Origin: Aquihabitans sp.
Lineage (GTDB): Bacteria; Actinomycetota; Acidimicrobiia; Acidimicrobiales; Iamiaceae
NCBI GenBank assembly: GCA_025353965.1
Contig: JANXNS010000032.1
Coordinates: 1 to 49,127, forward strand
DNA length: 49,127 bases
Direction of reading: 5' to 3'
In this document: positions 15,963 through 30,624 of the stretch, piece after piece
Numbering within the stretch: the first letter of the stretch is position 1
Layout: each line of letters opens with the position of its first letter
Made by a program: the position numbers and the translations under genes
Notes under the pieces: model-generated
Seen by the model: only the letters and a program-made list of their open reading frames with translations
Told to the model about the DNA's origin: nothing
Databases searched by the model: none

Positions 15963-17495
15963 CTAGGCGAGCTTTTCTACGAACTTTTCTAGTTGGCGGA
16001 GGTTGCGGCATTCGTAGGCGCCATCGGTGTAGGCGGCGTAGTCGCCAACGATGGAGTCTCCGGTGTCCCAGTAGCTCTTGGGCTCCGGGTTGAGCCAGTA
16101 CACGTGCCGGGCCCGGTGCTGCATTTCCTTGACGACCCAACTCTGGGAGGCGTGGTAGTTGTTCCGGGCATCACCGAGAATGATCACCGTGGTTTTGGGC
16201 CCGATGTCTTTGCCCCACTTGTTGTGGAACACCTCAAAGGCGTGGCCGTAGTCGGAGTGACCGTCTACCCACACCACGTCTGCCTCGGTGTTCACTCGGT
16301 GAACGGCCTCGGTGACATCCTCCACGCCCTCGAAGTACGAGGTGACCTCGTCTATGCCGTCGATGAAGACGAAGGCCCGCACCTTGGAGAACTGGCCGCT
16401 GATCGCATAGACGAGCATCAGGGTGAACCGGGCAAACGCCGCCACCGAGCCGGAGATATCGGCGATGACGAAAATCTCGGGCTTGTGTGGGCGCGGGTGG
16501 CGGAACTTGGGCTCGGCAGGCACACCGCCATAAGAGAGGGATGCCCGCACCGTCCGACGAAAATCCAGTGGGCCCCGACGGTTGTGGCGGCGCTTGCGGG
16601 CCAGGCGCACGGCGAGCCGCCGGGTGAGCGGGATGAGGGCTTTGCGCAGGCCCACCATTTCTTCCCGGCTGGCGTGCATGAAGTCGACGTCTTCTGGCAG
16701 GGGCTTACGCAGGGTCTTGGCCATGGCCTCGATACCCCGATCGGCCACCAGCCGACGACGGATCTCCGCCTCGATCTCCTTCTTCAACGCGTCTATGCGG
16801 TGTTCGTACTCGTCTTGCTCGAGGCGCTCTTCGAGCTTGGAAAGCTCGTGGCCATCTGCCTCCGCCTGCTCGCGGCGCTGCTCCATCATCTTCTCGAGCA
16901 GACCCTCGAGATCCAGATTCCGCAGGGTCCGGTACAGGTAATAGGTGCCGCCCACCGGCCGGCCCGGCTCCATGCCAGCAAAGCGCTTGACCGCTTGGCG
17001 GGCAATGGCCTTCATGAGCGACTCATTGCCCTTCATCATTGCTTGGTACAGCAGTTGCTGGAGTTCCTCCGGGGTGAGGCCATCGCCGCCGCCTTGGCCG
17101 CTCTGGCCGCTCCCCTCGTCTCCGGCGCCGTCTCGTTCGTCGTCATCGAGAAGGTCAGCTAGGTCCTGCTCTAAGGAGTCATCATCCAGCCCATATTTGG
17201 AGCCCCGAAGCGAGAAGTAGACCTCGAACACGGTTTCGAACGAGCGCCAGTGCGCGTTGTTCTTCACCAGCGTTGCCGCCAAGGCGTACTTGAATGCCTC
17301 GCGATCCTCCATGGGGATATGGCGAATGGCCGCCATGGCATCAAGGTTCTCGGTGAGGCTCACCGGCAAGCCGGCTTCGCGTAGTTCCCCGATGAACCCG
17401 TTGAGGAGGTCTAGTAAGGGCTCGCCGGCAACGCGGAGGTCCCCCAGGTTGTCATCGTCGCCGTTCACCAGGGCCGGGTCGGAGTGGTCGGTCAC
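15963..17495 (-). CDS. CoxE-type VWA domain protein
   Basis: This 510-residue cytosolic protein has a helical N-terminus (LLDLLNGFIGELREAGLPVSLTENLDAM split). An acidic linker rich in Asp, Glu and Gly follows at about 125-150, then a charged helical middle. The C-terminal VWA domain has the MIDAS motif D346-I-S348-G-S350. Such proteins work with MoxR-family AAA ATPases to insert metals into or mature partner enzymes, as CoxD/CoxE do for CO dehydrogenase. It is 11 bases downstream of a MoxR gene, so the two form an operon. No cox structural genes or other obvious client lie nearby, so the target is unknown. Confidence 0.88.
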   Translation of the reverse strand: MTDHSDPALVNGDDDNLGDLRVAGEPLLDLLNGFIGELREAGLPVSLTENLDAMAAIRHIPMEDREAFKYALAATLVKNNAHWRSFETVFEVYFSLRGSKYGLDDDSLEQDLADLLDDDERDGAGDEGSGQSGQGGGDGLTPEELQQLLYQAMMKGNESLMKAIARQAVKRFAGMEPGRPVGGTYYLYRTLRNLDLEGLLEKMMEQRREQAEADGHELSKLEERLEQDEYEHRIDALKKEIEAEIRRRLVADRGIEAMAKTLRKPLPEDVDFMHASREEMVGLRKALIPLTRRLAVRLARKRRHNRRGPLDFRRTVRASLSYGGVPAEPKFRHPRPHKPEIFVIADISGSVAAFARFTLMLVYAISGQFSKVRAFVFIDGIDEVTSYFEGVEDVTEAVHRVNTEADVVWVDGHSDYGHAFEVFHNKWGKDIGPKTTVIILGDARNNYHASQSWVVKEMQHRARHVYWLNPEPKSYWDTGDSIVGDYAAYTDGAYECRNLRQLEKFVEKLA

Positions 17496-17506
17496 GATGG
17501 CCAGGC

Positions 17507-18409
17507 CTACTTGGGGCCGGGAGCGAAGGCCTTCATGCCCTGCTTGTCAGCCGCAAACTCACGTACGGCCTTGGCGATATCTGACTGGTACTTGAGCAAG
17601 ATATTTGCCGTGCTGGAAGCAACCTCGGCATCTACCTGCTCGACGCCGAGCAGCATCAAGGTGTTGGCCCAGTCCAGCGTTTCGGATACCGAGGGGGACT
17701 TCTTGAGTTCCAACTGGCGCAAGGACCGCACAATGCGGGCCACCTGGTCGGCCAGGTTTTCGGTGATGTCCGGGACCTTAGTGAGAATGATTTCTTTCTC
17801 ACGCTCCATATCCGGATAGTCGATGTGGAGGAAGAGGCAGCGGCGCTTGAGGGCCTCCGAGAGCTCACGAGTGTTGTTCGAGGTGAGGAACACCAAGGGG
17901 ATCTGCTTGGCCTCAATGGTGCCAAGTTCCGGGATGGACACCTGATAGTCCGACAAGATCTCCAACAGGAGTGCCTCGGTCTCTACCTCAACTCGGTCCA
18001 CCTCGTCGATGAGCAGAACCACCGGTTCTGTGGCCCGGATGGCCTCCAGCAACGGCCGCTCGAGCAGGAACTCGTCCGAGAAGAGATCCTCTTCAACCTC
18101 GTCCCACGAGTCATTACCGCGTTGGGCCTGGATGCGCAGAAGCTGCTTCTTGTAGTTCCACTCGTAGAGCGCCTTGGCTTCGTCCAGTCCCTCGTAGCAC
18201 TGGAGGCGAATGAGCCGGGCACCGATCATCTCGGCCACCGACTTGGCCAGCTGGGTCTTGCCGGTTCCGGCCGGACCCTCAACCAGAATCGGCTTCTTGA
18301 GCCGGTCGGCGAGGTAAACGATCCCAGCGATGCCCTCGTCAGAGAGGTAATCGACCTTGCGGAGGCCATCGCGGACCTCAGGGACGGACTCGAAGCGGTA
18401 CTCGGTCAT
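17507..18409 (-). CDS. MoxR-family AAA+ ATPase
   Basis: This 300-residue ATPase has Walker A GPAGTGKT at 45-52, Walker B LLIDEVD with D135 and E136, and the MoxR helix-2 insert region (CYEGLDEAKALYEWNY). The sensor region is TSNNTRELSEALKRRC. MoxR ATPases act as chaperones with VWA partners; the partner gene follows immediately. TAACCT is exactly 6 bases before the ATG, suggesting a leaderless transcript, and a 16-base palindrome covers the -35 region. The sequence resembles CoxD-type ATPases more than stress-type RavA. Confidence 0.92.
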   Translation of the reverse strand: MTEYRFESVPEVRDGLRKVDYLSDEGIAGIVYLADRLKKPILVEGPAGTGKTQLAKSVAEMIGARLIRLQCYEGLDEAKALYEWNYKKQLLRIQAQRGNDSWDEVEEDLFSDEFLLERPLLEAIRATEPVVLLIDEVDRVEVETEALLLEILSDYQVSIPELGTIEAKQIPLVFLTSNNTRELSEALKRRCLFLHIDYPDMEREKEIILTKVPDITENLADQVARIVRSLRQLELKKSPSVSETLDWANTLMLLGVEQVDAEVASSTANILLKYQSDIAKAVREFAADKQGMKAFAPGPK

Positions 18410-18461: not shown

Positions 18462-19712
18462 TCAAGCCCGGGTCTGGCCGTCACCCCGGACGAGGTACTT
18501 CGCGGTGGTCAGCTCCCGCAGACCCATCGGGCCCCGAGCATGAAGTTTTTGGGTGCTGATGCCAATCTCGGCGCCAAACCCGAACTCCTCACCATCCACA
18601 AACCTGGTCGATGCATTCACGACCACCGCAGCGGCATCGACCTCCTGGGTAAAGCGATCGGCCGCCGCCAGCGAACCGGTGATGATCGCCTCGCTATGGC
18701 CGGAGCTGTACCGCGCGATGTGGTCCATGGCTTCATCGATGTTTTGAACGACCTTTACGGCGAGCTTGAGGTCCAGGAATTCTTCGGCCCAATCAACCTC
18801 TGTCGCCTCCGTCGCTGAAGGCAGCAGGGCCATGGTCTTCGGGTCCGCCACCAAGGCCACGCCCGGAAGCGCCTCGGCCAAGCCCCCCAGGAACGTCTCG
18901 GCCACCGCCTGGTGCACCAGCAAGGTCTCAGCGGCATTGCACACCGAAGGCCGCTGCGTTTTGGCGTTGTGGATGATTCGTTCGGCCATCTCTAGATCTG
19001 CGGCCGCGTCCACATAGATATGGCAGTTCCCGGCCCCGTCGATCACATAGGGCACGGTCGCGTTGTCCAGAATCGACTGAATCAGCGATGGGCCGCCTCG
19101 AGGAATGAGGCAGTCGATCGAGCCACGCTGCTGCATGAATTCGATGGCACCAGCTCGGCTCGTGTCGTCCACCAGAACGAGAGCATCGGCGGGAAGATCG
19201 ACCTTCACGTAGGCCTCCCGCAAAACCGAAGCAATGGCCAGGTTCGACGTGATCGCGCCCGACGAGCCCCGCAAAAAGGCGGCATTGCCCGATTTCAGGC
19301 AGAGGCCCGCGGCGTCAGAGGTCACGTTCGGGCGGTTTTCATAGATGATCGCCACCACCCCGAGGGGGACCCGCACACGGCTGATGCGTAGGCCGTTGGG
19401 CCGAACCCAGCCATCAACCACCTCGCCGACGGGGTCGGCCAAGCCGGCAACTTGTCGCAGTCCCCCGGCCATGGCTGCCACTCGGCTGGCATCTAGGCGG
19501 AGTCGATCCACCACGGTGGCGGCCACCCCTGCCTCCTCGGCGCGAGCGACGTCCGCGGCGTTGGCCACGAGCAGATCTTCGGTCCGTTCGATCAACAGTT
19601 CAGCGGCCCCAACCAAGGCGCGGTCTTTCTGGGTGGTCGGCGCGGTGGCGAGCACCCGGGATGCGGCCTTGGCTCGTCGGCCAAGGTCAGGAATCGAAGC
19701 GGTCGCAGACAC
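18462..19712 (-). CDS. proA: Gamma-glutamyl phosphate reductase
   Basis: ProA reduces gamma-glutamyl phosphate to glutamate semialdehyde with NADPH in proline synthesis. The sequence of about 416 residues has VPLGVVAIIYENRPNVTSDA, the LKSGNAAFLRGSS nucleotide region and the catalytic cysteine in TQRPSVCNAAETLLVH. Further family blocks are VNASTRFVDGEEFGFGAEIGIS and HARGPMGLRELTT. GTG 19712 is preferred over TTG 19718 because TAACGT lies exactly 6 bases upstream, a repeated pattern here. Its partner proB is 8.5 kb away on the same strand, with an opposite-strand block between them. Confidence 0.96.
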   Translation of the reverse strand: MSATASIPDLGRRAKAASRVLATAPTTQKDRALVGAAELLIERTEDLLVANAADVARAEEAGVAATVVDRLRLDASRVAAMAGGLRQVAGLADPVGEVVDGWVRPNGLRISRVRVPLGVVAIIYENRPNVTSDAAGLCLKSGNAAFLRGSSGAITSNLAIASVLREAYVKVDLPADALVLVDDTSRAGAIEFMQQRGSIDCLIPRGGPSLIQSILDNATVPYVIDGAGNCHIYVDAAADLEMAERIIHNAKTQRPSVCNAAETLLVHQAVAETFLGGLAEALPGVALVADPKTMALLPSATEATEVDWAEEFLDLKLAVKVVQNIDEAMDHIARYSSGHSEAIITGSLAAADRFTQEVDAAAVVVNASTRFVDGEEFGFGAEIGISTQKLHARGPMGLRELTTAKYLVRGDGQTRA

Positions 19713-19718
19713 GGCCAA

Positions 19719-19770: not shown

Positions 19771-20361
19771 ATGCCCCTGGTACGACCGGCCCTCGCCGAA
19801 GAACTCCAACAGGTCGGCACCACCTTGGCGGCCTCGTTTGATGGCGACCCGGTCTGGAGTTGGCTGGCGTCGCCACAAGCAGATTGGTCCCGTCGGGCCG
19901 CAGCGTGGTTTGCCACCGAGGCCCGCATTCAGATGGCAGGCGGCGGTGAGGTGTTGGTGGATGACCAGCTACGAGGCGCAGCCATCTGGGCACAACCGGA
20001 CCATTGGAAAACGTCGCCCAGGGAGTTGGTGTCGCTCGTACGGCCATCACTTCAGCTCTTCCGAGGCAATACCCTTCGCAGCCTTCGCACCATCAACACG
20101 ATGGAGAAGCTCCACCCGACACCTCCGCACTGGTACCTGGCCATCTTGGGCACCGATCCGAGCCATCAAGGCCATGGCATCGGCAGCGCGTTGATCGGGG
20201 CCATTACCGACCGGTGCGACGACCAGGGGCTGCCGGCCTACCTGGAGTCCTCGAAGGAACGAAACGTGGCCTTCTATGCTCGGCACGGGTTCGAAGTCAC
20301 GGGCCAGCCCCACCTTCCTGGCGGTCCGAAGATCTGGCTGATGTGGCGCGAGCCCCGGTGA
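19771..20361 (+). CDS. GNAT-family N-acetyltransferase
   Basis: This 196-residue protein has the GNAT acetyl-CoA motif as LAILGTDPSHQGHGIGSALI (Q/R-x-x-G-x-G/A form). The later AYLESSKERNVAFYARHGFEVTG is the typical B/C motif region of the fold. The substrate is unknown. It is the first gene of the plus-strand block between proA and proB and lies 13 bases before the AAA ATPase gene, so it may be co-transcribed. Relation to the envelope genes downstream is not established. Confidence 0.85.
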   Translation: MPLVRPALAEELQQVGTTLAASFDGDPVWSWLASPQADWSRRAAAWFATEARIQMAGGGEVLVDDQLRGAAIWAQPDHWKTSPRELVSLVRPSLQLFRGNTLRSLRTINTMEKLHPTPPHWYLAILGTDPSHQGHGIGSALIGAITDRCDDQGLPAYLESSKERNVAFYARHGFEVTGQPHLPGGPKIWLMWREPR

Positions 20362-20374
20362 ACCCCGTGACGAA

Positions 20375-21808
20375 ATGATTCCGCCCAAGCAGGTCCAGCG
20401 GGCCGTCGAGTCGTTCGTGGCCGACGTGGCCAGAGGTATGCGCGATGTGGTGTCGCGCCTGCCCAATCTCGATGGCCGTCGCCTCGAACAAGACGTGGCC
20501 AATGAGGCCTTCAACCTGGTCGCGGCCTTTGTGGATGTGGACCGCAGCCACACCGACGATGAGCTCTGGGGCGTGATCTTTGCGTTCGGCACGTGGATGC
20601 CGGATCAGTTGGGCCGGGCCAAGCCCGACGACCTACGCCGGTCCTCGCTGCTGGTGGGCCGGGCCGCCTGGTTGGATCAGGTCTCGCCCATGTTCGAGAT
20701 CCTGGTCACCGCCGATCAGCGGTTTGGCACGGGCCATAGCCGGGCTTATTACGACCGGGCCATCCACCTCGCGTTCACCGTCATTGCCTTGGATGCGGAG
20801 CCCGCTCGCGTTGAGCTCCAAGCCGTCGACGATCTTTGTTCCCGATTGCTCGCCGCCATGGGCGGTCTGCCCGTGTCTCCCCTTGCGGCCGTTGGACCGT
20901 CAGCGACGCCTCAGACCGTCACACCGGGCACCGCTGCGGTGGCCAAGCCATCAAAGGAGGAGCTTCCGCCGGCCCGCCCGCTAGAAGAACTTCTGGCCGA
21001 ACTCGATCGGCTGGTAGGGCTTGAAAGCGTCAAAACCGAGGTCCGCCTGGTCACCAACCTGCTGCGAGTCCAGCAACTGCGGGCCGAGCGCAAGCTGCCC
21101 ACCTCCGCCCAGAGCCGGCATCTGGTCTTCACCGGCAACCCCGGCACGGGCAAGACCACCGTGGCTCGCCTGCTGGCCAGTATTTACCGATCGCTGGGCG
21201 TCGTGGCCAAGGGCCAACTGATCGAGACCGATCGTTCGGGACTGGTGTCGGGCTTCGTCGGCCAGACCGCCCTGAAGGTCATGGAGGTGGCCGACAAGGC
21301 CGCCGACGGGGTACTCCTGATAGACGAGGCCTACGCCTTGGCCCGGGGCGGGGAGAACGACTTCGGCCGCGAAGCCATCGATACGCTAGTGAAGGTCATA
21401 GAAGACCGCCGAGACACCCTGGTGGTGATCGCCGCTGGCTACCCGGATGAAATGGCCGACTTCATCGGAGCTAATCCCGGCTTGGCCTCACGATTTCCCA
21501 AGACGATCTTCTTCCCCGACTACAGCGCCGACGAGCTTTGGAGCATCTTCGCCACCATCGGCGACGCAGCCGGCTACCACCCGGACCCCGCCGCCGAAGC
21601 CAAAGCTCGGATCTGGTTCGATTCCGTACCCCGAGATAAGGGTTTCGGCAATGGCCGACTGGCCCGAAACCTGTTCGAAGACGCCGTCGCCCGTCAAGCT
21701 GGCCGAGTGGTTGCCCTCACCGATCCGACCGACGAGCAGCTCACCACGCTCACCGACGCCGACATTGCCGGACCCGGCGAAGGCCCCCGCCACCGCGTCA
21801 GCCCCTGA
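20375..21808 (+). CDS. AAA ATPase of CbxX/CfqX type with TerB-like N-terminal region
   Basis: This 477-residue protein has an N-terminal helical region (about 1-165) with a segment AFNLVAAFVDVDRSHTDDELWGVI (split) reminiscent of TerB-type tellurite-resistance domains; this resemblance is tentative. A Pro/Thr-rich linker follows. The AAA domain has Walker A GNPGTGKTT at 254-262, Walker B LLIDEAYAL with D317 and E318, and the CbxX-style VIAAGYPDEM and NPGLASRFP segments. Relatives remodel protein complexes (rubisco activases, EccA of type VII secretion). It probably acts on a partner from the downstream membrane genes, but that is inference. Confidence 0.85.
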   Translation: MIPPKQVQRAVESFVADVARGMRDVVSRLPNLDGRRLEQDVANEAFNLVAAFVDVDRSHTDDELWGVIFAFGTWMPDQLGRAKPDDLRRSSLLVGRAAWLDQVSPMFEILVTADQRFGTGHSRAYYDRAIHLAFTVIALDAEPARVELQAVDDLCSRLLAAMGGLPVSPLAAVGPSATPQTVTPGTAAVAKPSKEELPPARPLEELLAELDRLVGLESVKTEVRLVTNLLRVQQLRAERKLPTSAQSRHLVFTGNPGTGKTTVARLLASIYRSLGVVAKGQLIETDRSGLVSGFVGQTALKVMEVADKAADGVLLIDEAYALARGGENDFGREAIDTLVKVIEDRRDTLVVIAAGYPDEMADFIGANPGLASRFPKTIFFPDYSADELWSIFATIGDAAGYHPDPAAEAKARIWFDSVPRDKGFGNGRLARNLFEDAVARQAGRVVALTDPTDEQLTTLTDADIAGPGEGPRHRVSP

Positions 21809-21840
21809 CCCATGACCAGGGCCGACCATCCAGCCAGCGG

Positions 21841-21846
21841 TAGCGT
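21841..21846 (+). promoter_or_regulatory. -10 element TAGCGT before the membrane-anchored protein gene
   Basis: GCGGTAGCGT ends 6 bases before ATG 21853. It suggests a second, leaderless promoter inside the plus-strand block. Confidence 0.45.
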
Positions 21847-21852
21847 TCAGCC

Positions 21853-22779
21853 ATGAGGCAGCGGATTCTGGCCATCGTTGGTGCGATTGCCCTTGTGGTG
21901 GTGGCGTTGGTTGTGCGCGGCATCGTGACCGGATCAGACGGCGCCAGCGGAACCAGTGACGCCAAGCCCATCGTGGCTTGCACCTCAGACCTCATGGCGG
22001 TCTGCCAAGCCCTGGCCGACAGTGGAGACATCGCAGCAAACCCGCCCACCCTTGACCTAGCCCGCGCCGCCATCGCCACCGTCGACAACCGACCGCTGGA
22101 CGGTTGGATCACCTGGGACCCCGCCCCGGGGATCGCCAACCTGGATGCCGAGGCTGGTGGGAAAACCCGCCCGTGGTCCACGGCGCAAGCACTGGGCACA
22201 TCCCCCCTTGGCATCGCCACCCTCATCGGCATACAACCGGTCCTGCCGAGTGGCTGCTCCTTGAGCCCGGTCGTCTGGGACTGCATTGCCCGCGCTGCGG
22301 TCGAGGAGCAGACGCCGGTTGGCATTGGCACGGGCACCACCGCCGGAAGCCTGGCCCGGCTCTATCCCCTAGCTCAGGCCCTGGTGCCTAAGGGCGGCGA
22401 TTTCCGCGACATTGCGGCCGCGGATCTGAAAGCAATCATCGACAGCCCCAATGTCGCCCAGGCCGATTTCCCAAACCAGGCCAAGACACTGGTGACCCAA
22501 CGGGGCGCTCTCGACATTTTGGTGGGCCCATCGGCCGGTCTCAATGCGCTCAGGGGCACCCGAACCGCAGTCGCCGGAGGAACCGCTGAAGCGGTCAATG
22601 CGACGGTGGTGCTCGTCAGCCGCGACGGGGCCAACATCGGGTCCGTGGCCAAGGCCGCCACCTCCGACACGACCGCCCAAGCGCTCCGCGGCACCGGCGT
22701 TGTCCCGGGCACGGGCAGACTGGCGCCCGAAGGCAGAGCCGGCGAGTTGTACGCCGTCCGAGACAAGGTGGATTCCTGA
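21853..22779 (+). CDS. Membrane-anchored periplasmic binding-protein-like protein
   Basis: This 308-residue protein begins with a short basic segment and one membrane helix (ILAIVGAIALVVVALVVRGI). The rest should be outside the membrane. The fold cannot be named with certainty, but segments such as PIVACTSDLMAVCQALAD, DGWITWDPAPGI and GTGTTAGSLARLYPLAQAL resemble type 2 periplasmic binding proteins. The stop overlaps the next start (TGATG), so it is coupled to the binding-protein/VWA lipoprotein and the two probably act together. Ligand and function are unknown. Confidence 0.7.
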   Translation: MRQRILAIVGAIALVVVALVVRGIVTGSDGASGTSDAKPIVACTSDLMAVCQALADSGDIAANPPTLDLARAAIATVDNRPLDGWITWDPAPGIANLDAEAGGKTRPWSTAQALGTSPLGIATLIGIQPVLPSGCSLSPVVWDCIARAAVEEQTPVGIGTGTTAGSLARLYPLAQALVPKGGDFRDIAAADLKAIIDSPNVAQADFPNQAKTLVTQRGALDILVGPSAGLNALRGTRTAVAGGTAEAVNATVVLVSRDGANIGSVAKAATSDTTAQALRGTGVVPGTGRLAPEGRAGELYAVRDKVDS

Positions 22780-24614
22780 TGCACATACGCACGACTGCAG
22801 TCCGGCTGACCGCCCTGGTCCTGGCCGCGGGCCTGGTTACCGCGAGTTGTGGGAGCGGAGGCGGTACGAATGCCAACCAAGATGGGCTTGGAGATCCTGG
22901 TGACTGCACGGTGATTGACATGGCCGTGTCATCGGAGAAGATCGACCTCATGACGGCCTTGGCCAAGTCGTTCAATGGTTCCGACGACGCCAAGCTCGGT
23001 GACGGCTGCGCCTTCGTCCGTCCGTTCTCCAAGGCTTCAGGCGGCGCAACTGAGCTATTGGCTACCGGCTGGCCCGAGACCGGCGAGGGCGAGCGCCCCG
23101 TGATCTGGTCGCCGGCCGCATCCAGCTGGGGGCAAATTCTCAACCAGCGTTTGGCTGACGACGGCCAAAGCGCGTTGGTGGGAGATGCCGTTTCCTTCCA
23201 GCTCACGCCGTTGGTCATTGCGATGCCCAAGCCCATGGCTGATGCCCTCGGGTATCCGGCCAAGCCCGTCGGCTGGGCCGACATCGCCAAGTTGTCCACT
23301 TCAAAGGAAGGCTGGGCCGCGTATGGCCACCCGGAGTGGGGGGCCTTCAAGCTTGGGAAGACCAACCCCAACTTCTCGACCAGCGGCCTATCGGCCCTGA
23401 TCGGACAGACCTACGCGGCGGCCGGCAAGACCCGCGGGCTCTCCCAAGAGGATCTGGACAACCCAAAGGTGACGGCCTTCGCCAAGAATGTCGAGTCGTC
23501 CGTCGTGCACTACGGCGACATCACCATGAACTTCCTCAACAACTGGTTCCGAACGGATCGAGACGGGACCTCCCTCCTCTATGCGTCAGCGGTCGCCGTC
23601 GAGGAGAAGTCGGTCATTGACTACAACAAGGGCAATCCAGACGGGATCCTGAAGCCAGGCGAGACCCCTCGCAAGCCCCGCGTTCCCTTGGTGGCGATCT
23701 ACCCAAAGGAGGGCACGCTCTATAGCGATAGCCCGCTCTACGTGCTCAACGCAGATTGGGTCACGGCAACAGAGGAGAAGGCGGCGAAGCAGTTCATCGA
23801 TTTCGTCCAGCGCCCCTCAGCTCAGAAAAAGGTGTTGGAGTACGGCTTCCGGCCCGGCAATCCGGACGTCACCATCGGCGCTCCAATCTCAAAGGCCAAC
23901 GGCGTCGATCCGGATCAGCCGTCCACGCTGCTCCAGGTGCCAGCCCCGCCGGTCCTGTTGTCGATGCTGCAGAAATGGCGGGAACAGCGCAAGGGGGCTC
24001 GCGTGCTGTTGGTGCTGGACGTGTCTGGTTCCATGAAGGAAGCGGCCGATCCCAAAAACCCCAGTGGTCCGACCAAGCTCGATCTCGCCAAGAAGGCCGC
24101 CATCGAGGCACTGGGTGAATTCAAGAGCGACGACCAAGTTGGCCTGCGGATCTTCACCACCGGGCTCGGGTCCAACCAAGACGCAGACTTCCAGGACCTC
24201 CTGAAGGTGCAGCCCATGTCCGCCAACCGAGAAGGGCTGGCCTCCAAGATTCGCGATCAGTTCCCGCAGAATGCCACCCCGCTCTATGCGGTGACGGGAG
24301 ATGCCTTCGGCGACATGGTCACCCAGTACGACCCCACCAAAATCAATGCCGTCGTCTTGCTCACCGATGGCAAGAACGACGATGGCGATAGCTCAGATGA
24401 TCGCCAGCAGCTCACCTCTCTGTTGGAGAAGCTCCGCAGGGGCACTGACGGAGAAAACGCCAAATCGGTCCGGGTCTTCCCGATCGCCTACGGCTCCGAC
24501 GCAGACCTCAACACCCTGACGGAGATCGCCGAAGCAACCAATGCCGCCGCCTACGACGCTTCCAACCCGGCCACCATCACCAAGGTGTTCACCGCGGTGG
24601 TGTCGAACTTCTGA
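22779..24614 (+). CDS. Lipoprotein with binding-protein domain fused to VWA domain
   Basis: This 611-residue protein has a lipoprotein signal peptide with lipobox VTASC and lipidated C24. Residues about 40-390 resemble an extracellular solute-binding domain (PLVIAMPKPMADALG, WADIAKL, PLVAIYPKEGTLYSDSPLY, AAKQFIDFVQ). Residues about 408-605 form a VWA domain with MIDAS D414-V-S416-G-S418, NATPLY and D530 in LTDGKND, so metal-dependent ligand binding is likely intact. Proteins with this domain pair are known in actinobacteria but have no established role. Its neighbours include MurJ and PspA, which points to the cell envelope. Confidence 0.88.
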   Translation: MHIRTTAVRLTALVLAAGLVTASCGSGGGTNANQDGLGDPGDCTVIDMAVSSEKIDLMTALAKSFNGSDDAKLGDGCAFVRPFSKASGGATELLATGWPETGEGERPVIWSPAASSWGQILNQRLADDGQSALVGDAVSFQLTPLVIAMPKPMADALGYPAKPVGWADIAKLSTSKEGWAAYGHPEWGAFKLGKTNPNFSTSGLSALIGQTYAAAGKTRGLSQEDLDNPKVTAFAKNVESSVVHYGDITMNFLNNWFRTDRDGTSLLYASAVAVEEKSVIDYNKGNPDGILKPGETPRKPRVPLVAIYPKEGTLYSDSPLYVLNADWVTATEEKAAKQFIDFVQRPSAQKKVLEYGFRPGNPDVTIGAPISKANGVDPDQPSTLLQVPAPPVLLSMLQKWREQRKGARVLLVLDVSGSMKEAADPKNPSGPTKLDLAKKAAIEALGEFKSDDQVGLRIFTTGLGSNQDADFQDLLKVQPMSANREGLASKIRDQFPQNATPLYAVTGDAFGDMVTQYDPTKINAVVLLTDGKNDDGDSSDDRQQLTSLLEKLRRGTDGENAKSVRVFPIAYGSDADLNTLTEIAEATNAAAYDASNPATITKVFTAVVSNF

Positions 24615-24628
24615 CCGGATACCCGTAG

Positions 24629-25438
24629 ATGACGACGCTCAGCCTTCGCGACCGGTTCTATTCCCCGTCGGTCTCACGGGCCCTGACTTCCCCAAGCGGC
24701 ATCCTGGCCCTAGGCGGTGGGGTGGCTGCGGGCATCATGCTTGCCGCAATAGCCGCGGCGGCGGCGCCCGTCACTGTTGTGGCCGCCGTCGTCGGTGGCG
24801 CGCTGGGCTACGGCGGCCGGATCGCACTCGCCCTTCCCCGCACCGGCGGAACGAGCACCAGAATTGATCCGTCGAGCGTCAAGGAGCCTTGGCGCCGTGC
24901 CGTCCAGGAAGCGCAGCGGGCCCAGAGCCGGTTCCGCGACGCGGTGAAGTCGTTCCAGCCCGGCCCGCTCCGAGACTCGCTGACCGCGGTTTCCGGACAG
25001 ATCGACGATGCAATCGCAGAATGTTGGCGCGTCGCCAAGCAAGGCCAAATCGTGGCCGATGCCCGCACCCGCATCAACGACCGCGAAGCCCGGTGGGAGC
25101 TACAACAGATTCAGCAGGCCGCCAACCCGGGCACCGCGCCAAACGAAACCCAGGCGCGCACCATTGCGGCGCTCCAGGCCCAGATGGCCACAGCAGACCG
25201 TATGGATGCATTGGTGAGCCGGGCCAGGGACCAACTCGGCCTGCTCAATGCACGGCTGGACGAGAGTGTGACCCGAGCCATCGAGCTGTCCGTCTCCAAT
25301 CGCCTGAGCGATGCCAACACGCTCGGTGACGATGTCGGAGACATCGTCACCGATCTTGAGTCCCTACGGATGGCGATCGAGGACGTGGATCACGCCGACG
25401 ACGCCGGGGGCCACAGCCAGACCTCCCCCTCCTCGTGA
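24629..25438 (+). CDS. Unknown membrane protein with long coiled coil
   Basis: I do not recognise this 269-residue family. An N-terminal hydrophobic region (about 22-70) rich in Ala, Gly and Val can form one or two membrane helices. After a short basic loop, residues about 85-250 are charged and helical with coiled-coil character (VQEAQRAQSRFRDAVKSF, ALQAQMATADRMDALVSRAR). The tail is acidic with His and Ser. The gene follows the VWA lipoprotein by 14 bases, and its stop overlaps the MurJ start as GTGA. A scaffold linking the membrane to PspA or the AAA ATPase is conceivable but unproven. Confidence 0.7.
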   Translation: MTTLSLRDRFYSPSVSRALTSPSGILALGGGVAAGIMLAAIAAAAAPVTVVAAVVGGALGYGGRIALALPRTGGTSTRIDPSSVKEPWRRAVQEAQRAQSRFRDAVKSFQPGPLRDSLTAVSGQIDDAIAECWRVAKQGQIVADARTRINDREARWELQQIQQAANPGTAPNETQARTIAALQAQMATADRMDALVSRARDQLGLLNARLDESVTRAIELSVSNRLSDANTLGDDVGDIVTDLESLRMAIEDVDHADDAGGHSQTSPSS

Positions 25439-27309
25439 ACCCACCGGCCACGCCTCCAGCGGGCCGGCCCCGCCGAAGCGAACCAACAGGGGGCACGGTC
25501 CACCGGCCCCGCACCGTGAAACCTGGATTCGACGGCCAGCCGATCATCGTTGTCCGCCCTCGGACCATTGCTGCGCTGGGAAGACCAGATCCCATTGCGA
25601 TCCCGCCCGCCCCCTTGCTCGATGATCCCGTCGGGCTTCTCGTCGACGACCTTTGGGTTGAGAAGCTGGACACCGGTCAGGTCTCCCCTACCGACACAGA
25701 ATCGGCGGAACTCGCCCGGGCGCCGGAACCAAGCCGGATGCTCCGCAACAACTTATTTGTGGCTAGCGGCACTGCGGTGTCCCGCCTCACCGGGCTCATC
25801 CGGTCCGGCTTGATCTTTGCGTTGCTCATCAAAGGCTTGGGCGATGCCTATCTGGGCGCCAACAACACCCCGAACATGATCTACGAGCTCATCCTCGGTG
25901 GGGTGCTGGCCGCAACGTTGGTCCCCCTTTTCACCGATGATGTAGAAAAAGGCGGCACCGATGGGGCCACCTCCGCCATCATCTCGTTCGCGTTGGTTGC
26001 CCTAGCCGCAGTGACAGTGATCGCTGCGGTGGTCGCCCCGCTCATCGTGTGGTTGCTCAGCACCGGATCGCCAGCGGCCACCCGCAACAACTATTTGGCG
26101 GCGGCCATCCCGCTCTCGCTCCTGTTCACCCCGCAGGTCTTTTTCTACGGGCTCATGGCCGTGTGGTCGGCCGTTCTCAATTCCCGGCACCGCTTCTTGG
26201 CCGCGGCCTGGGCGCCGGTGCTCAACAACCTCATCGCCATCGTCACCCTGGTGGTCGTCTGGCAGATGGTCGACGGCTACCCGACACTCCAAGATGCCCT
26301 CACCGACAAATCCATCCTGCTGGTGCTCGGGCTTGGGACGACCGCAGGAATTGCCACCATGGCGTTGGCCCTCTACCCATCGGTTCGACGGGCTGGCGTA
26401 CGCCTCAAGTTCAAGTTCGACTTGAAACACCCGGCAGTTCAACGCACCCTTCGGCTATCGGGGTGGACCTTCGGCTACGTGGTCGCCAACATGATGGCGG
26501 TCCTGATCATCGGCATCTTGTCCAAGCCTGGCTCTGACGGCACCAAGGATTACCAAACCGCTTACCAGTTCTTCCAACTCCCCCACGGGCTCCTCGCCGT
26601 CTCCATCATGGTCACATTCGAGCCACTACTCGGCCGGGCCGACGCCCGGGGTGACCGGTCCGACTTCAACCGGCAACTCCTGCTCGGGTTCCGGCTCATC
26701 AGCCTCCTTATGATCCCGGCCGCGGTGGGCTACGTCGCCCTCCCCAAGGGCCTGGACTACCGAACGTTCCAGGCGACGGGCCAGTTGGGCCAGGCGCTCC
26801 ACCTCACCAGCATCATTGCTGCCTTCGCCGTGGGCCTACCGGGGTTCTCGGCCTACCTCTACGCCATGCGGGCCTTCTACGCCATGAAGAACACCCGAAC
26901 GCCGTTCCTCATCAACTGTTTCGAGAACGCCGTGAACGTGGTGGCCGCCGTGGTGTTCGTGCGTTGGTGGGGTATTGCGGGGTTGGCCCTCTCGTTCGGT
27001 CTCGCCTACACCTTGGCGGCGATCATGGCCATCTCCGTTCTCACCCGCCACAGCCCCGGTTTCGATTGGCGGGGGCTGGCGCGCACGGCCGCTCAACTTC
27101 TCTTGGCCGCCGCGATCATGGGCGGCGTGGTCTTTGGCCTCCTGGTGGCGATCTCCCCCAGTTCAGCGCTCGTGATGATCCCCACCGTGATCGGTGCAAC
27201 CGCGCTGGGCATCGTCGTGTACTTCGCCGCCATATGGGCGGCCCAGGTCGATGGGATCAGCCAGCTCATGGCTCGCCTCCCGATCCTCAGGCGCTTCTCC
27301 TCACCATGA
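25435..27309 (+). CDS. murJ: Lipid II flippase MurJ (MviN) with N-terminal extension
   Basis: This 624-residue MATE/MVF-fold transporter moves lipid II across the membrane for peptidoglycan synthesis. The core starts near residue 100 with RMLRNNLFVASGTAVSRLTGLIR, and continues with ANNTPNMIYELILGGVLAATLVPLF and about 14 membrane segments, including the conserved FYAMKNTRTPF region. The first 100 residues are Pro-rich, cytosolic and not part of the usual flippase. GTG 25435 overlaps the preceding stop; a later start near the core would remove the extension. There is no C-terminal kinase-like domain as in mycobacterial MviN. The location in a stress-type cluster is unusual. Confidence 0.92.
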   Translation: MNPPATPPAGRPRRSEPTGGTVHRPRTVKPGFDGQPIIVVRPRTIAALGRPDPIAIPPAPLLDDPVGLLVDDLWVEKLDTGQVSPTDTESAELARAPEPSRMLRNNLFVASGTAVSRLTGLIRSGLIFALLIKGLGDAYLGANNTPNMIYELILGGVLAATLVPLFTDDVEKGGTDGATSAIISFALVALAAVTVIAAVVAPLIVWLLSTGSPAATRNNYLAAAIPLSLLFTPQVFFYGLMAVWSAVLNSRHRFLAAAWAPVLNNLIAIVTLVVVWQMVDGYPTLQDALTDKSILLVLGLGTTAGIATMALALYPSVRRAGVRLKFKFDLKHPAVQRTLRLSGWTFGYVVANMMAVLIIGILSKPGSDGTKDYQTAYQFFQLPHGLLAVSIMVTFEPLLGRADARGDRSDFNRQLLLGFRLISLLMIPAAVGYVALPKGLDYRTFQATGQLGQALHLTSIIAAFAVGLPGFSAYLYAMRAFYAMKNTRTPFLINCFENAVNVVAAVVFVRWWGIAGLALSFGLAYTLAAIMAISVLTRHSPGFDWRGLARTAAQLLLAAAIMGGVVFGLLVAISPSSALVMIPTVIGATALGIVVYFAAIWAAQVDGISQLMARLPILRRFSSP

Positions 27310-27340
27310 CACTGCGGGTCCTGGTTCCCGTTCAGTGGCT

Positions 27341-27346
27341 TAGGCT
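27341..27346 (+). promoter_or_regulatory. -10 element TAGGCT of the pspA-like gene
   Basis: TTAGGCT ends 6 bases before ATG 27353 with no ribosome site, suggesting a separate leaderless transcript for the PspA-like gene. Confidence 0.45.
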
Positions 27347-27352
27347 CTGGCC

Positions 27353-28183
27353 ATGATCAAGTTCTTCAAACGCTTTTGGAACTACGTAACGGCCGGAGCC
27401 AACCAGAAATTCAACGAAAAGGCCGACCCCAAGATTCAGTTGGAACAGGCCATTACCGAGGCGCAGGATCAGCATCGGCGGCTCAAAGAACACGCCGCCA
27501 ATGTGATCGCTCAGGCCAAGCAGACGGAAATGCAGCTGAACCGGGCCATGGAGCAGCTCGAGAAGCTCAACGCCAATGCCCGCCAGGCGGTCACCATGGC
27601 AGATACCGCCGCCAAGGGTGGCGACGCAACCAAGGCAACCGAGTACACCCGGGCGGCAGAAACCATCGCTACCCAGCTCATCTCGGTCGAGGGCCAGGTA
27701 GAAGAACTCAAGACCATGCATTACGGCGCCACGCAGGCGGCAGACCAAGCCAAAGCGGCCGTCGGCCAAAATGGTCAGCTACTGCAGAAGAAGCTCACCG
27801 AACGCAACCAACTCTTGGGCCAGCTCGAGCAGGCCAAGATGCAAGAGCAGATGAACAAAGCCATGTCTTCGCTCTCGGAGACGGTCGGCCAAGAGGTCCC
27901 CACCCTCAACGAGGTCCGGGACAAGATCGAGCAGCGTTACGCCCGGGCCAAGGGCATGAGCGAACTCAGCGAGGCCTCCACCGAGAGCCGCATGATCGAA
28001 ATCGAAACGGCCGCAGCAAACTTCGAGGCCCAAGATCGCCTGGCCTCTATTCGTGCCTCGCTCGGCCTGGAGGCCGCAACCGCTCCTGCTGCACCCGCGG
28101 CTGTTCCCGCCGTGGCAGAGGCTGTTGCCTTGGCCACCGAACCGCCAGCTGAGCCCACCCCGCAGCCGTCGACCGGGGCCTAG
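27353..28183 (+). CDS. pspA: PspA/IM30 family phage-shock protein
   Basis: This 276-residue protein begins with an amphipathic helix (IKFFKRFWNYVTAGANQKFN), then the PspA segment ADPKIQLEQAITEAQDQHRRLKEHAANV (split) and long coiled-coil hairpins to about residue 225. PspA proteins polymerise on damaged membranes and limit proton leakage. The Ala/Pro-rich C-terminal tail of about 40 residues is an addition to the family core. No PspB/PspC or PspF is present. It is the last gene of the plus-strand block after MurJ, and it faces the convergent proB 28 bases away. Confidence 0.92.
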   Translation: MIKFFKRFWNYVTAGANQKFNEKADPKIQLEQAITEAQDQHRRLKEHAANVIAQAKQTEMQLNRAMEQLEKLNANARQAVTMADTAAKGGDATKATEYTRAAETIATQLISVEGQVEELKTMHYGATQAADQAKAAVGQNGQLLQKKLTERNQLLGQLEQAKMQEQMNKAMSSLSETVGQEVPTLNEVRDKIEQRYARAKGMSELSEASTESRMIEIETAAANFEAQDRLASIRASLGLEAATAPAAPAAVPAVAEAVALATEPPAEPTPQPSTGA

Positions 28184-28211: not shown

Positions 28212-29312
28212 TCAGGGGACGATCACAAGATCGTCGCGGTGGACCACAACATGCGATACGCCTTCGGGCAGATCCACGGTGCGCCGTCCAGCCGTCTGCC
28301 GCAGGTCAGCCGCGGCAACGCGGGCCAAGCCCTTGGCAAAGGTGACTCCGTCCGGGCCCGCGATTTCTACGGCCTCGTCCACGACAAAGGTTCCTTCTAC
28401 CTCCAGCACTCCCGCAGGTAAGAGCGAGACACCCCGCTCCAGCAGGGCCCGCCGGGCACCTTCGTCCACCATGACCCGGCCGGTGGTATCGACCGCAAAG
28501 GCAATCCAGAGCTTGCGGGCTGCCATCCGCTGGGGGCGCGGATGGATCACCGTGCCCACTCCAGGGGTGGACGCCACCGCGTCGGCCAGCACACCCTCGC
28601 GGTGCGCGGCGGCGATGACCGCCCGCACACCAGACCAGGAGGCCATCTTGGCCGCCGCCACCTTGGAGGCCATGCCCCCACTCCCGCGGACGGTGCCCGT
28701 ACCTCCGGCTAGGGCCTCGAGCTCGGCGTCGAACTCCACGATCTCCTCGATCAACGAAGCCCGCTCATCGAGGCGCGGGTCCGCCGTGAGCAATCCGGCC
28801 GCGTCGGTGAGAAGCACCAAGACGTCTGCCCCGATCAGGTGGGCAACCAACACACTCAATCGGTCATTGTCGCCGAAGCGGATCTCGTCGTCGGCTATCG
28901 CGTCGTTTTCGTTGACGACCGGTACGACCCCAAGGTCCAACAGGCGGAGCAACGTCCCACGGGCATGGAGATATTGCCGACGAATACCAAAGTCCAGCGG
29001 GGCCAGCATGACCTGGCCCGCCACCACTCCGTGGGCGGCGAAGCAATCGTCGTACACCCGCATGAGGCGGCTCTGACCAATGGCCGAGGCGGCCTGGAGA
29101 GTCACGGAATCGGTGGGTCGCCGGTTCCCGCCGAGACCGATGGCCGGCAGTCCAGCAGCGATAGCGCCCGATGTCACCACCACCACGCGGTGGCCCGATG
29201 CTCGCAGCGCCGCCACCTCCGCGCAGAACTTGGCGATGGCGACAATGTCTATCTCGCCCTGGTCGTCGGTGATCGACGACGTCCCGATTTTGGCTACCAC
29301 CACCTGCGTCAC
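28212..29312 (-). CDS. proB: Glutamate 5-kinase
   Basis: ProB phosphorylates glutamate as the first step of proline synthesis. The 366-residue protein starts VVVAKIGTSSIT, the amino-acid kinase nucleotide loop, and has VVVVTSGAIAAG, VVPVVNENDAIADDEIRFGDNDRLS and GSGGMASKVAAAKMAS. A C-terminal PUA domain is at about 275-366. The start is GTG 29312. It follows obgE by 67 bases in the same direction, the usual order, but proA does not follow; a convergent plus-strand block comes first. Feedback inhibition by proline is known for the family. Confidence 0.96.
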   Translation of the reverse strand: MTQVVVAKIGTSSITDDQGEIDIVAIAKFCAEVAALRASGHRVVVVTSGAIAAGLPAIGLGGNRRPTDSVTLQAASAIGQSRLMRVYDDCFAAHGVVAGQVMLAPLDFGIRRQYLHARGTLLRLLDLGVVPVVNENDAIADDEIRFGDNDRLSVLVAHLIGADVLVLLTDAAGLLTADPRLDERASLIEEIVEFDAELEALAGGTGTVRGSGGMASKVAAAKMASWSGVRAVIAAAHREGVLADAVASTPGVGTVIHPRPQRMAARKLWIAFAVDTTGRVMVDEGARRALLERGVSLLPAGVLEVEGTFVVDEAVEIAGPDGVTFAKGLARVAAADLRQTAGRRTVDLPEGVSHVVVHRDDLVIVP

Positions 29313-29379
29313 GCCCCGAAGGTTGCCCGCTGGCCGTTAGCTGATGCGAACTGAATCTCTAGGACATGGGGTGACGAGG

Positions 29380-30624
29380 TCAGTCAGCAATGAAGTCGAA
29401 GCTGAACTTGCCGATGTGGACGGTGTCGCCGTCCTTGGCCCCAGCCTTGGCCAGGGCTTTATCTACCCCGAGCCGCTTGAGCCGTTCTTGCACGTACGCA
29501 AGCGCTTCGAGGTTGGTGATATCGGACAAGGCAACGGCGCGTTCGACGGCCCGACCGGCAACCACGTAGGCGCCGGTGTCTATCCGGCTCACCACGAGGC
29601 CCTCCGGCTGAGGTCTATGGACCACAAACGGTTCAGGTTCTGGTTCGGCCGAACGGGCGAGGCGGACGGCCTCAGCCATCGATCCAACGAGCTGTGGGAT
29701 TCCAGCACCAGTGACGGCCGAGAACGTCGCACCCTTCCATGCCGCCAACCGATCCGGGTCGGCAATGTCGGTTCGACTTCCGACCACAACGCGCGGCCGC
29801 TCCACCAGCTCCGGGCGGTACCCCTCCAGCTCGGCCAACAGAATGCGCTCCTGCTCGGCTGGCTCATGTTCGGTCGAGCTGGCCAGGTCGATCAGGATCA
29901 CCAAAGCTCGAGCCCGTTCGATGTGACGCAGAAATTGATGCCCAAGCCCCCGGCCCTCGCTGGCCCCCTCGATGAGCCCGGGAATGTCGGCCACCACAAT
30001 CTCGTCGCCCTCATCCATGAGCACCACCCCAAGATTGGGTTCGAGCGTGGTGAAGGGGTAGTCCGCGATCTTTGGCTTGGCCGCGGAGATCCGCGAGATG
30101 AGCGTGCTCTTGCCCACGTTGGGAAAGCCCACCAACGCCACATCGGCCAGCAGCTTCAGCTCGAGGCGGAGCCAGCGTTCTTCACCGTTCTCGCCCTGCT
30201 CCGCAAAGGATGGGGCCCGGCGCCGGTTTGAGAGGAACCGGGCGTTTCCACGACCGCCACGACCGCCAGCTGCGGCCAACCACCTATCACCCGCAGTAGA
30301 AAGATCGGCGAGTAGGAGCCCTTCCGCGTCGAACACGGTGGTCCCCTCGGGCACCGCGACCACGAGATCAATGCCGCCGTGGCCGTGCTTTCGCTTGCCT
30401 TGGCCGTGGGCGCCGCTGGTGGCCTTGCGGTGCGGGTGGTCACGGAAGGCCAGGAGTGAGGAGACATTCCGGTCGGCGACCAACCAGATATCTCCGCCCT
30501 TGCCGCCGTCGCCACCATCGGGACCCCCCAGCGGCACATGGGCTTCACGACGAACGGAGACTGCCCCGGCGCCGCCGTCTCCGCCCCGGACGTTGAGTTG
30601 GGCTTCGTCGACGAATCCTGACAT
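29380..30624 (-). CDS. obgE: Obg-family GTPase
   Basis: Obg is a ribosome-associated GTPase needed for 50S assembly and growth control. The 414-residue protein has the Gly-rich Obg fold (FVDEAQLNVRGGDGGAG and later glycine strings to about 155). The G domain has the P-loop GFPNVGKST at 166-174 and G3 DIPGLIEGA. The C-terminal OCT domain includes the ALAYVQERLKRLGVDKALAKAGAKDGD segment. Family G4 is altered to SRTD (usually NKxD), a common Obg-subgroup variation to check. TAGCGT lies 8 bases before the ATG. It leads the obgE-proB unit and is divergent from the dGTPase-like gene. Confidence 0.96.
   Translation of the reverse strand: MSGFVDEAQLNVRGGDGGAGAVSVRREAHVPLGGPDGGDGGKGGDIWLVADRNVSSLLAFRDHPHRKATSGAHGQGKRKHGHGGIDLVVAVPEGTTVFDAEGLLLADLSTAGDRWLAAAGGRGGRGNARFLSNRRRAPSFAEQGENGEERWLRLELKLLADVALVGFPNVGKSTLISRISAAKPKIADYPFTTLEPNLGVVLMDEGDEIVVADIPGLIEGASEGRGLGHQFLRHIERARALVILIDLASSTEHEPAEQERILLAELEGYRPELVERPRVVVGSRTDIADPDRLAAWKGATFSAVTGAGIPQLVGSMAEAVRLARSAEPEPEPFVVHRPQPEGLVVSRIDTGAYVVAGRAVERAVALSDITNLEALAYVQERLKRLGVDKALAKAGAKDGDTVHIGKFSFDFIAD

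Follow-up and report, generated by a model that had tools for sequence, protein, structure and literature searches.

Why does an actinobacterium keep an AAA+ ATPase, two exported binding proteins, a membrane coiled-coil protein, a lipid II flippase and PspA in one row of genes, and do these proteins work together? The row lies in contig JANXNS010000032.1 of Aquihabitans sp. (assembly GCA_025353965.1), of which we analysed the whole stretch from position 1 to 49,127 (the window). It consists of six plus-strand genes and a GNAT gene between proA and proB-obg; all seven are open reading frames with the coordinates given in a first-pass annotation, which had read the six as an envelope-maintenance module with MurJ at its centre. 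The six proteins are the ATPase (AAA), a small binding protein (SBP), a lipoprotein in which a second SBP is fused to a VWA domain (SBP-VWA), a coiled-coil protein with two transmembrane (TM) segments (CC), the flippase MurJ and PspA. The nearest finished relative of the source genome is Aquihabitans sp. G128 (Acidimicrobiia, Acidimicrobiales, Iamiaceae).

On balance we favour the view that the row encodes a PspA-based envelope-maintenance module with an SBP/VWA sensor on the outside. We assign it to the phage shock protein (PSP) type because the gene order is conserved, neighbouring genes overlap, CC stays close to PspA in every strong match and the ATPase is CbbX-like. The core of the unit is SBP, SBP-VWA, CC, AAA and PspA, while MurJ is a lineage-limited, optional partner.

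Conservation of the gene order

SBP-VWA was searched for in 61 relatives and is present in 30, and gene order was compared in 26 neighbourhoods. The order AAA, SBP, SBP-VWA, CC, (MurJ), PspA is kept almost throughout these neighbourhoods, and in most of them the unit occupies the proA/proB-obg site. A wider scan of named genomes gave 212 SBP-VWA relatives, with 80 Actinomycetota loci retained for counting neighbours. Only loci with enough flank were used for each count, hence the differing denominators, and genes in the relatives come from a simple caller, not from reference annotation (the caller failed at locus L210). The small SBP precedes SBP-VWA in 73 of 77 testable loci and CC follows it in 72 of 74; AAA lies upstream in 55 of 69, PspA downstream in 42 of 53.

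The spacing is also kept. In the window SBP and SBP-VWA share one base (TGATG at 22779) and CC overlaps MurJ by four (GTGA, 25435-25438), as first annotated. Among the relatives, 14 of 23 SBP/SBP-VWA joints have a one- or four-base overlap and 12 of 19 CC-MurJ joints a four-base overlap. Order and spacing are thus preserved in dozens of species, and the tightly spaced, envelope-type module proposed in the first-pass annotation is not a chance row; the genes are not scattered in close relatives, where their adjacency is strongly conserved. Of the expected co-occurrence of the VWA lipoprotein, CC, MurJ and PspA, the parts that concern CC and PspA hold up well in the counts above, but MurJ is found downstream of SBP-VWA in just 35 of 61 testable loci.

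Could such a row have grown neutrally at a permissive site, from genes that are functionally unrelated? The site between proA and proB-obg is indeed variable: by genome it holds the full unit, CC-MurJ-PspA (L202), MurJ-PspA (L211) or PspA alone (L212), the last three at or by proB-obg. However, the order also holds elsewhere in the chromosome and outside this class. Five loci carry AAA-SBP-SBPVWA-CC-PspA without MurJ and with neither proA nor proB in the examined flanks, and five loci from other classes of the phylum (L170-L174) show the same order, again without MurJ. Together with the repeated one- and four-base overlaps, this makes neutral growth quite improbable.

Other genomes carry parts of the unit. 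AAA-CC-MurJ-PspA occurs in three related genomes, two of which carry one additional gene; both binding proteins are missing there, and SBP-VWA has no match anywhere in these genomes. Another three (L129, L133 and L115) have the trio SBP-SBPVWA-CC inside a cluster of glmU, prs, rplY, pth and mfd, names that were assigned from their sequences. Here PspA is found at a separate site. Two genomes read AAA-MurJ-PspA there, and the third has MurJ-PspA where a contig ends; in the two whose contigs extend far enough, proB-obg comes next. Gene context thus suggests that the unit splits into an outer part (SBP, SBP-VWA and CC) and an inner part (AAA, MurJ, PspA and often CC). Since CC occurs with either part, it looks like a hinge, as a membrane adaptor would be.

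The same split raises the question of whether two independent systems share one site. The trio would then work as a separate machine at the surface, perhaps for adhesion or polymer binding, which PspA, AAA and MurJ merely adjoin. This would fit the trio in the glmU-prs-rplY-pth-mfd cluster, which has no PspA or AAA beside it, and also the Streptomyces-size genomes in which SBP-VWA relatives stand alone, showing that membership in the SBP-VWA family does not in itself imply a tie to PspA. However, all 19 strong CC matches in a draw of 396 genomes across the phylum adjoin PspA or MurJ-PspA, with PspA within about 2.3 kb, and CC remains with AAA-MurJ-PspA where the binding proteins are absent. 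Further, a distant lineage (L180) has a minimal SBPVWA-CC-PspA operon, and where PspA is not beside the trio it is encoded elsewhere in 7 of 8 genomes. We therefore regard two separate systems as unlikely. In a second distant lineage (L175) two SBP-VWA genes and two CC-like genes accompany PspA.

Some loci depart from the common layout or carry doubtful names. In Desertimonas flava (L131, 7990-16246) CC flanks the SBP pair on both sides and MurJ follows, with PspA on the opposite strand. An Acidimicrobiia-type unit is also found in CAMDLX010000070.1, titled Bifidobacterium breve, and in QEUP01000004.1, titled Acidobacteria; both titles look wrong.

The component proteins

The identities first given to AAA, SBP-VWA (SBP_bac_11 plus VWA), MurJ and PspA stand, as all score above their Pfam cut-offs. 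For PspA the match to PF04012 (PspA_IM30) reaches 119.3 bits against a cut-off of 33.9, the amphipathic N-terminal segment MIKFFKRFWNYV is conserved, and no other PspA was found in the source genome. PspA belongs to the bacterial ESCRT-III superfamily (PMC8281802), and bacterial PspA proteins with AAA+ partners are on record in the main text of PMC11237479, the largest survey of PSP systems.

SBP-VWA matches SBP_bac_11 with 56.5 bits (cut-off 25) and is the best conserved of the four proteins that were aligned, with a mean column identity of 66% over 21 relatives. In all 21 sequences the lipobox cysteine C24 is invariant, as is the intact metal-ion-dependent adhesion site (MIDAS; D414-x-S416-x-S418, T500 and D530). 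The SBP motif LGKTNPN(F/Y)STSGL is almost unchanging in the same set, and distant relatives keep the variants LGHTNPD, LGKTNPK and FGKDNPH.

The small SBP by itself matches no family in a Pfam search. Its likeness to a binding protein was nevertheless seen at first reading, and a profile comparison by hhalign with the SBP half of SBP-VWA (probability 91%, E 1e-6) supports a diverged SBP; two members of its family match SBP_bac_11 weakly. Residues 1-31 are hydrophobic and form a single N-terminal TM anchor signal. Cysteines C43 and C51 are invariant, C135 and C144 nearly so. Judged from its sequence, the small protein is probably a fast-evolving, degenerate SBP paralogue with four conserved cysteines.

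What the two proteins bind is a separate question. Searches of the PDB by sequence with either binding protein matched VWA domains alone, so no ligand can be inferred from relatives of the SBP parts. Sensing of a wall precursor by the outside proteins is accordingly a weaker proposal than the first-pass annotation made it. Lipid II could be one candidate ligand among others, since lineages outside Acidimicrobiales have no MurJ in the unit.

Membership in SBP_bac_11 would also fit ordinary uptake proteins that serve an ATP-binding cassette (ABC) transporter encoded elsewhere. However, no permease or ABC ATPase is found in the unit, nor is there one among the neighbours conserved with it. In addition, one SBP is fused to a VWA domain and the other is highly diverged and TM-anchored. 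We find an uptake role very unlikely: with no transporter genes accompanying the SBPs, sensing or binding is the likelier function.

Further loci show variants of SBP-VWA or of its surroundings. Aquihabitans sp. G128 encodes the SBP half and the VWA half in separate frames (L052, 9077-10800; L119, 9905-12050); the split may be natural or may stem from an error in sequencing or assembly. In another actinobacterial lineage (L176, 8910-11776) SBP-VWA is followed by a 334-residue protein instead of CC and PspA; with its membrane segment and helical tail it is possibly an analogous adaptor. At L182 (8894-12172) an SBP-VWA relative adjoins a gene that resembles Ser/Thr protein kinases and is hydrophobic towards its C-terminal end, so a sensor might be coupled differently there.

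CC matches no family in Pfam or NCBIfam, in agreement with its first description as a coiled-coil protein of no known family. The structural model (predicted local distance difference test, pLDDT, 80) shows a hydrophobic hairpin followed by long helices, with hydrophobic residues at 22-61. A fold search with this model returned nothing at E < 0.001; the structural Z values (13.7 at most) are such as any helical bundle would give. The nearest candidate is PspM of mycobacteria, with which CC shares the layout: two TM segments, a C-terminal helical region and a gene beside pspA. When a 106-sequence CC profile was aligned with a 35-sequence PspM profile, hhalign gave a probability of 41% and an E-value of 2.8e-4 across 78 C-terminal residues of both, and the score of 35.6 compares with 25.6 for the best of 200 block shuffles. 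By analogy CC may work like PspM, as a membrane adaptor, whether or not it belongs to the PspM family. As a plain PspM homologue CC was not recovered by sequence search. Of the CC-like proteins in the two distant lineages, that of L175 is clearly related to CC (probability 99.7%) and that of L180 resembles CC in layout alone (20.6%).

PspM itself occurs in 17 of 31 sampled genera (64 of 121 genomes) of the family of genome G208 (loci L221-L250), so it is not restricted to a few species. According to the main text of PMC11237479 it is confined to mycobacteria and corynebacteria.

The AAA protein consists of an all-helical N-domain (about residues 1-162) and a core with Walker A and B motifs and AAA_lid_6. 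It has no hydrophobic segment, export signal or TM segment. The core of its model (pLDDT 87) matches CbbX with a Z of 26.8 (270 aligned residues, 4.2 Å, 42% identity), and the proteasomal, p97 and Vps4 ATPases trail with Z of about 17-18. The protein is thus of the CbbX/SpoVK type, yet it is an equivalog of neither, because its scores fall short of the NCBIfam cut-offs (spore_V_K 278 against 423 bits, CbbX 217 against 459 bits). We propose that it remodels assemblies of PspA or CC.

The N-domain had been called TerB-like, and to the eye its motifs do look so (D-x-D-G-x-H-T-D-x-E and a weaker second copy). In a search of its own genome, the TerB family PF05099 has no match at E<=1 at the AAA gene. 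Comparison with a narrow TerB set gave an hhalign probability of 3.7% with one common stretch of 34 residues, and a PDB profile search of the N-domain found nothing favouring TerB. Pfam has no MIT domain match in the N-domain, whose fold was not searched alone.

An AAA protein and a VWA domain with a MIDAS in one operon resemble the MoxR-VWA and chelatase pairs for metal insertion or protein maturation. However, the ATPase is of the CbbX type and not MoxR. Further, the VWA domain sits on an exported lipoprotein while the AAA protein lacks any export signal or TM segment; being on opposite sides of the membrane, they can hardly act as a pair. This is the least credible of the explanations that we considered.

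Finally, MurJ of the unit scores 215 bits for PF03023 (cut-off 27.4) and 230.6 bits for TIGR01695, narrowly below the cut-off of 235.55. Contig 183 of the source genome carries another MurJ, together with recN and SteA/SteB-like, pyrG-like and xerD-like genes (named from sequence), and all 61 relatives have at least one. MurJ is less central to the module than had been supposed: 26 of 61 testable loci have a unit without it, the examined versions from other classes lack it as well, and the slot is held in different families by two MurJ lineages that are very distant from each other. A tree built from 61 MurJ rows requires 8 changes of the 'in the unit' label, against 18.8 in shuffles. These absences and the tree rule out MurJ as a core member. 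From the tree, MurJ appears to have been brought to the slot more than once, or replaced in place. Its recurrence suggests a link with the unit in Acidimicrobiales, though the unit does not need MurJ.

A possible mechanism and its known counterparts

How could these proteins act together? Outside, the SBP-VWA lipoprotein and the membrane-anchored small SBP would form a sensor pair dependent on ligand and metal. CC would couple this pair to the inner face of the membrane and recruit or hold PspA, a role drawn by analogy with mycobacterial PspM. PspA would polymerise where the membrane is stressed or remodelled, and the CbbX-type ATPase would dismantle or turn over the assemblies of PspA (or CC), much as Vps4 acts on ESCRT-III. 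In Acidimicrobiales, the added MurJ might let the activity of PspA and AAA be placed or adjusted at the site of lipid II flipping. Throughout this scheme we infer the contacts, the ligand, the direction of the signal, the substrate of the ATPase and the link with MurJ. Taken whole, a PspA/AAA+ machine that is controlled across the membrane by an SBP/VWA sensor via a PspM-like adaptor, and tied to MurJ in Acidimicrobiales, is a tentative picture that we hold to be possible but distinctly less probable than the general assignment to a PspA-based module.

Several observations weigh against that assignment. Of the 69 loci testable for AAA, 14 have none ahead of SBP-VWA, and in Streptomyces-size genomes the SBP-VWA relatives have neither PspA nor CC beside them. 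The likeness between CC and PspM is weak and limited to the 78 C-terminal residues, and a PspM profile search of the phylum gave no credible Acidimicrobiia protein and did not recover CC. No conserved recruitment motif for the AAA N-domain is found on the PspA tails. Further, Pfam and NCBIfam show no domains of the stress regulators PspF, ClgR or LiaRS in the six genes or the GNAT gene.

The closest counterpart is the mycobacterial ClgR-PspA-PspM-PspN system, where PspA likewise lies beside a two-TM protein of about 250-270 residues with a helical cytosolic part. In our 396-genome draw the mycobacterial loci read clgR-pspA-pspM, named from sequence and gene order. However, ClgR and PspN are missing here, and AAA, SBP, SBP-VWA and MurJ are missing there. 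Similarly, the Lia system of Bacillus subtilis and the Psp system of Escherichia coli rely on an effector of the PspA family that works with membrane partners under envelope stress, but PspB/PspC, LiaI/LiaF, Toastrack and two-component genes are not found in the unit by Pfam.

Pairing of PspA with an AAA+ ATPase, as in ESCRT-III/Vps4, is described in the main text of PMC11237479. The ATPase of those pairs is a twin-AAA protein, whereas here it is a single-domain CbbX/SpoVK type with a helical N-domain. Longer PspA/AAA operons are also described there, which include an ABC transporter and a PBPB-OmpA protein; here there is no ABC transporter and the SBP is fused to VWA. Ter-type stress clusters have in common with the unit the mix of AAA and VWA and possibly a TerB-like N-domain, but the VWA protein is exported here, and TerC, TerD and TelA are not found in the unit.

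The main text of PMC11237479 does not mention VWA, TerB or MurJ, and no description of the SBP/SBP-VWA/CC/AAA/PspA composition was found in the open-licence literature, in line with the initial remark that no such system had been described. As far as these sources show, the unit is best filed as an undescribed variant among the PspA-type envelope systems. If the proposal is true, it would be the first PSP system in the accessible literature in which a CbbX-type ATPase serves disassembly and a defined SBP/VWA sensor lies outside the cytoplasm, both kept with PspA across Acidimicrobiia and beyond. According to the same main text, from 2024, it is not known how assembly is regulated by a PspA that has no AAA ATPase associated with it. 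The unit is a compact candidate for the disassembly of PspA polymers without Vps4 and for sensing of the envelope from outside, and the conserved CC adaptor suggests that PspM-like partners may extend beyond Mycobacteriales.

Features of the window and neighbouring genes

Table 1. Genes of the unit and its flanks, with positions in the window.
Feature	Positions	Strand	Assignment
proA	18462-19718	minus	flank of unit
GNAT acetyltransferase	19771-20361	plus	Pfam Acetyltransf_1
CbbX/SpoVK-type AAA+ ATPase, cytosolic (AAA)	20375-21808	plus	Pfam AAA + AAA_lid_6
Small exported binding protein (SBP)	21853-22779	plus	no Pfam family; diverged type II SBP by hhalign
SBP-VWA lipoprotein	22779-24614	plus	Pfam SBP_bac_11 + VWA
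Two-TM coiled-coil protein (CC)	24629-25438	plus	no Pfam/NCBIfam family
MurJ-family lipid II flippase	25435-27309	plus	Pfam MurJ
PspA (ESCRT-III superfamily)	27353-28183	plus	Pfam PspA_IM30
proB-obg	28212-30624	minus	flank of unit

The features are collected in Table 1. Within the family the GNAT gene is often the first of the unit, ahead of AAA in many relatives, and elsewhere it is optional. A scan for promoters and terminators gave counts no different from those in shuffled sequence.

Downstream of proA, and in the same direction, the window holds a second pair of AAA and VWA genes on the minus strand: a MadB-like MoxR ATPase (17507-18409) and a MadC-like VWA protein (15963-17495). The position of this pair is kept in most relatives.

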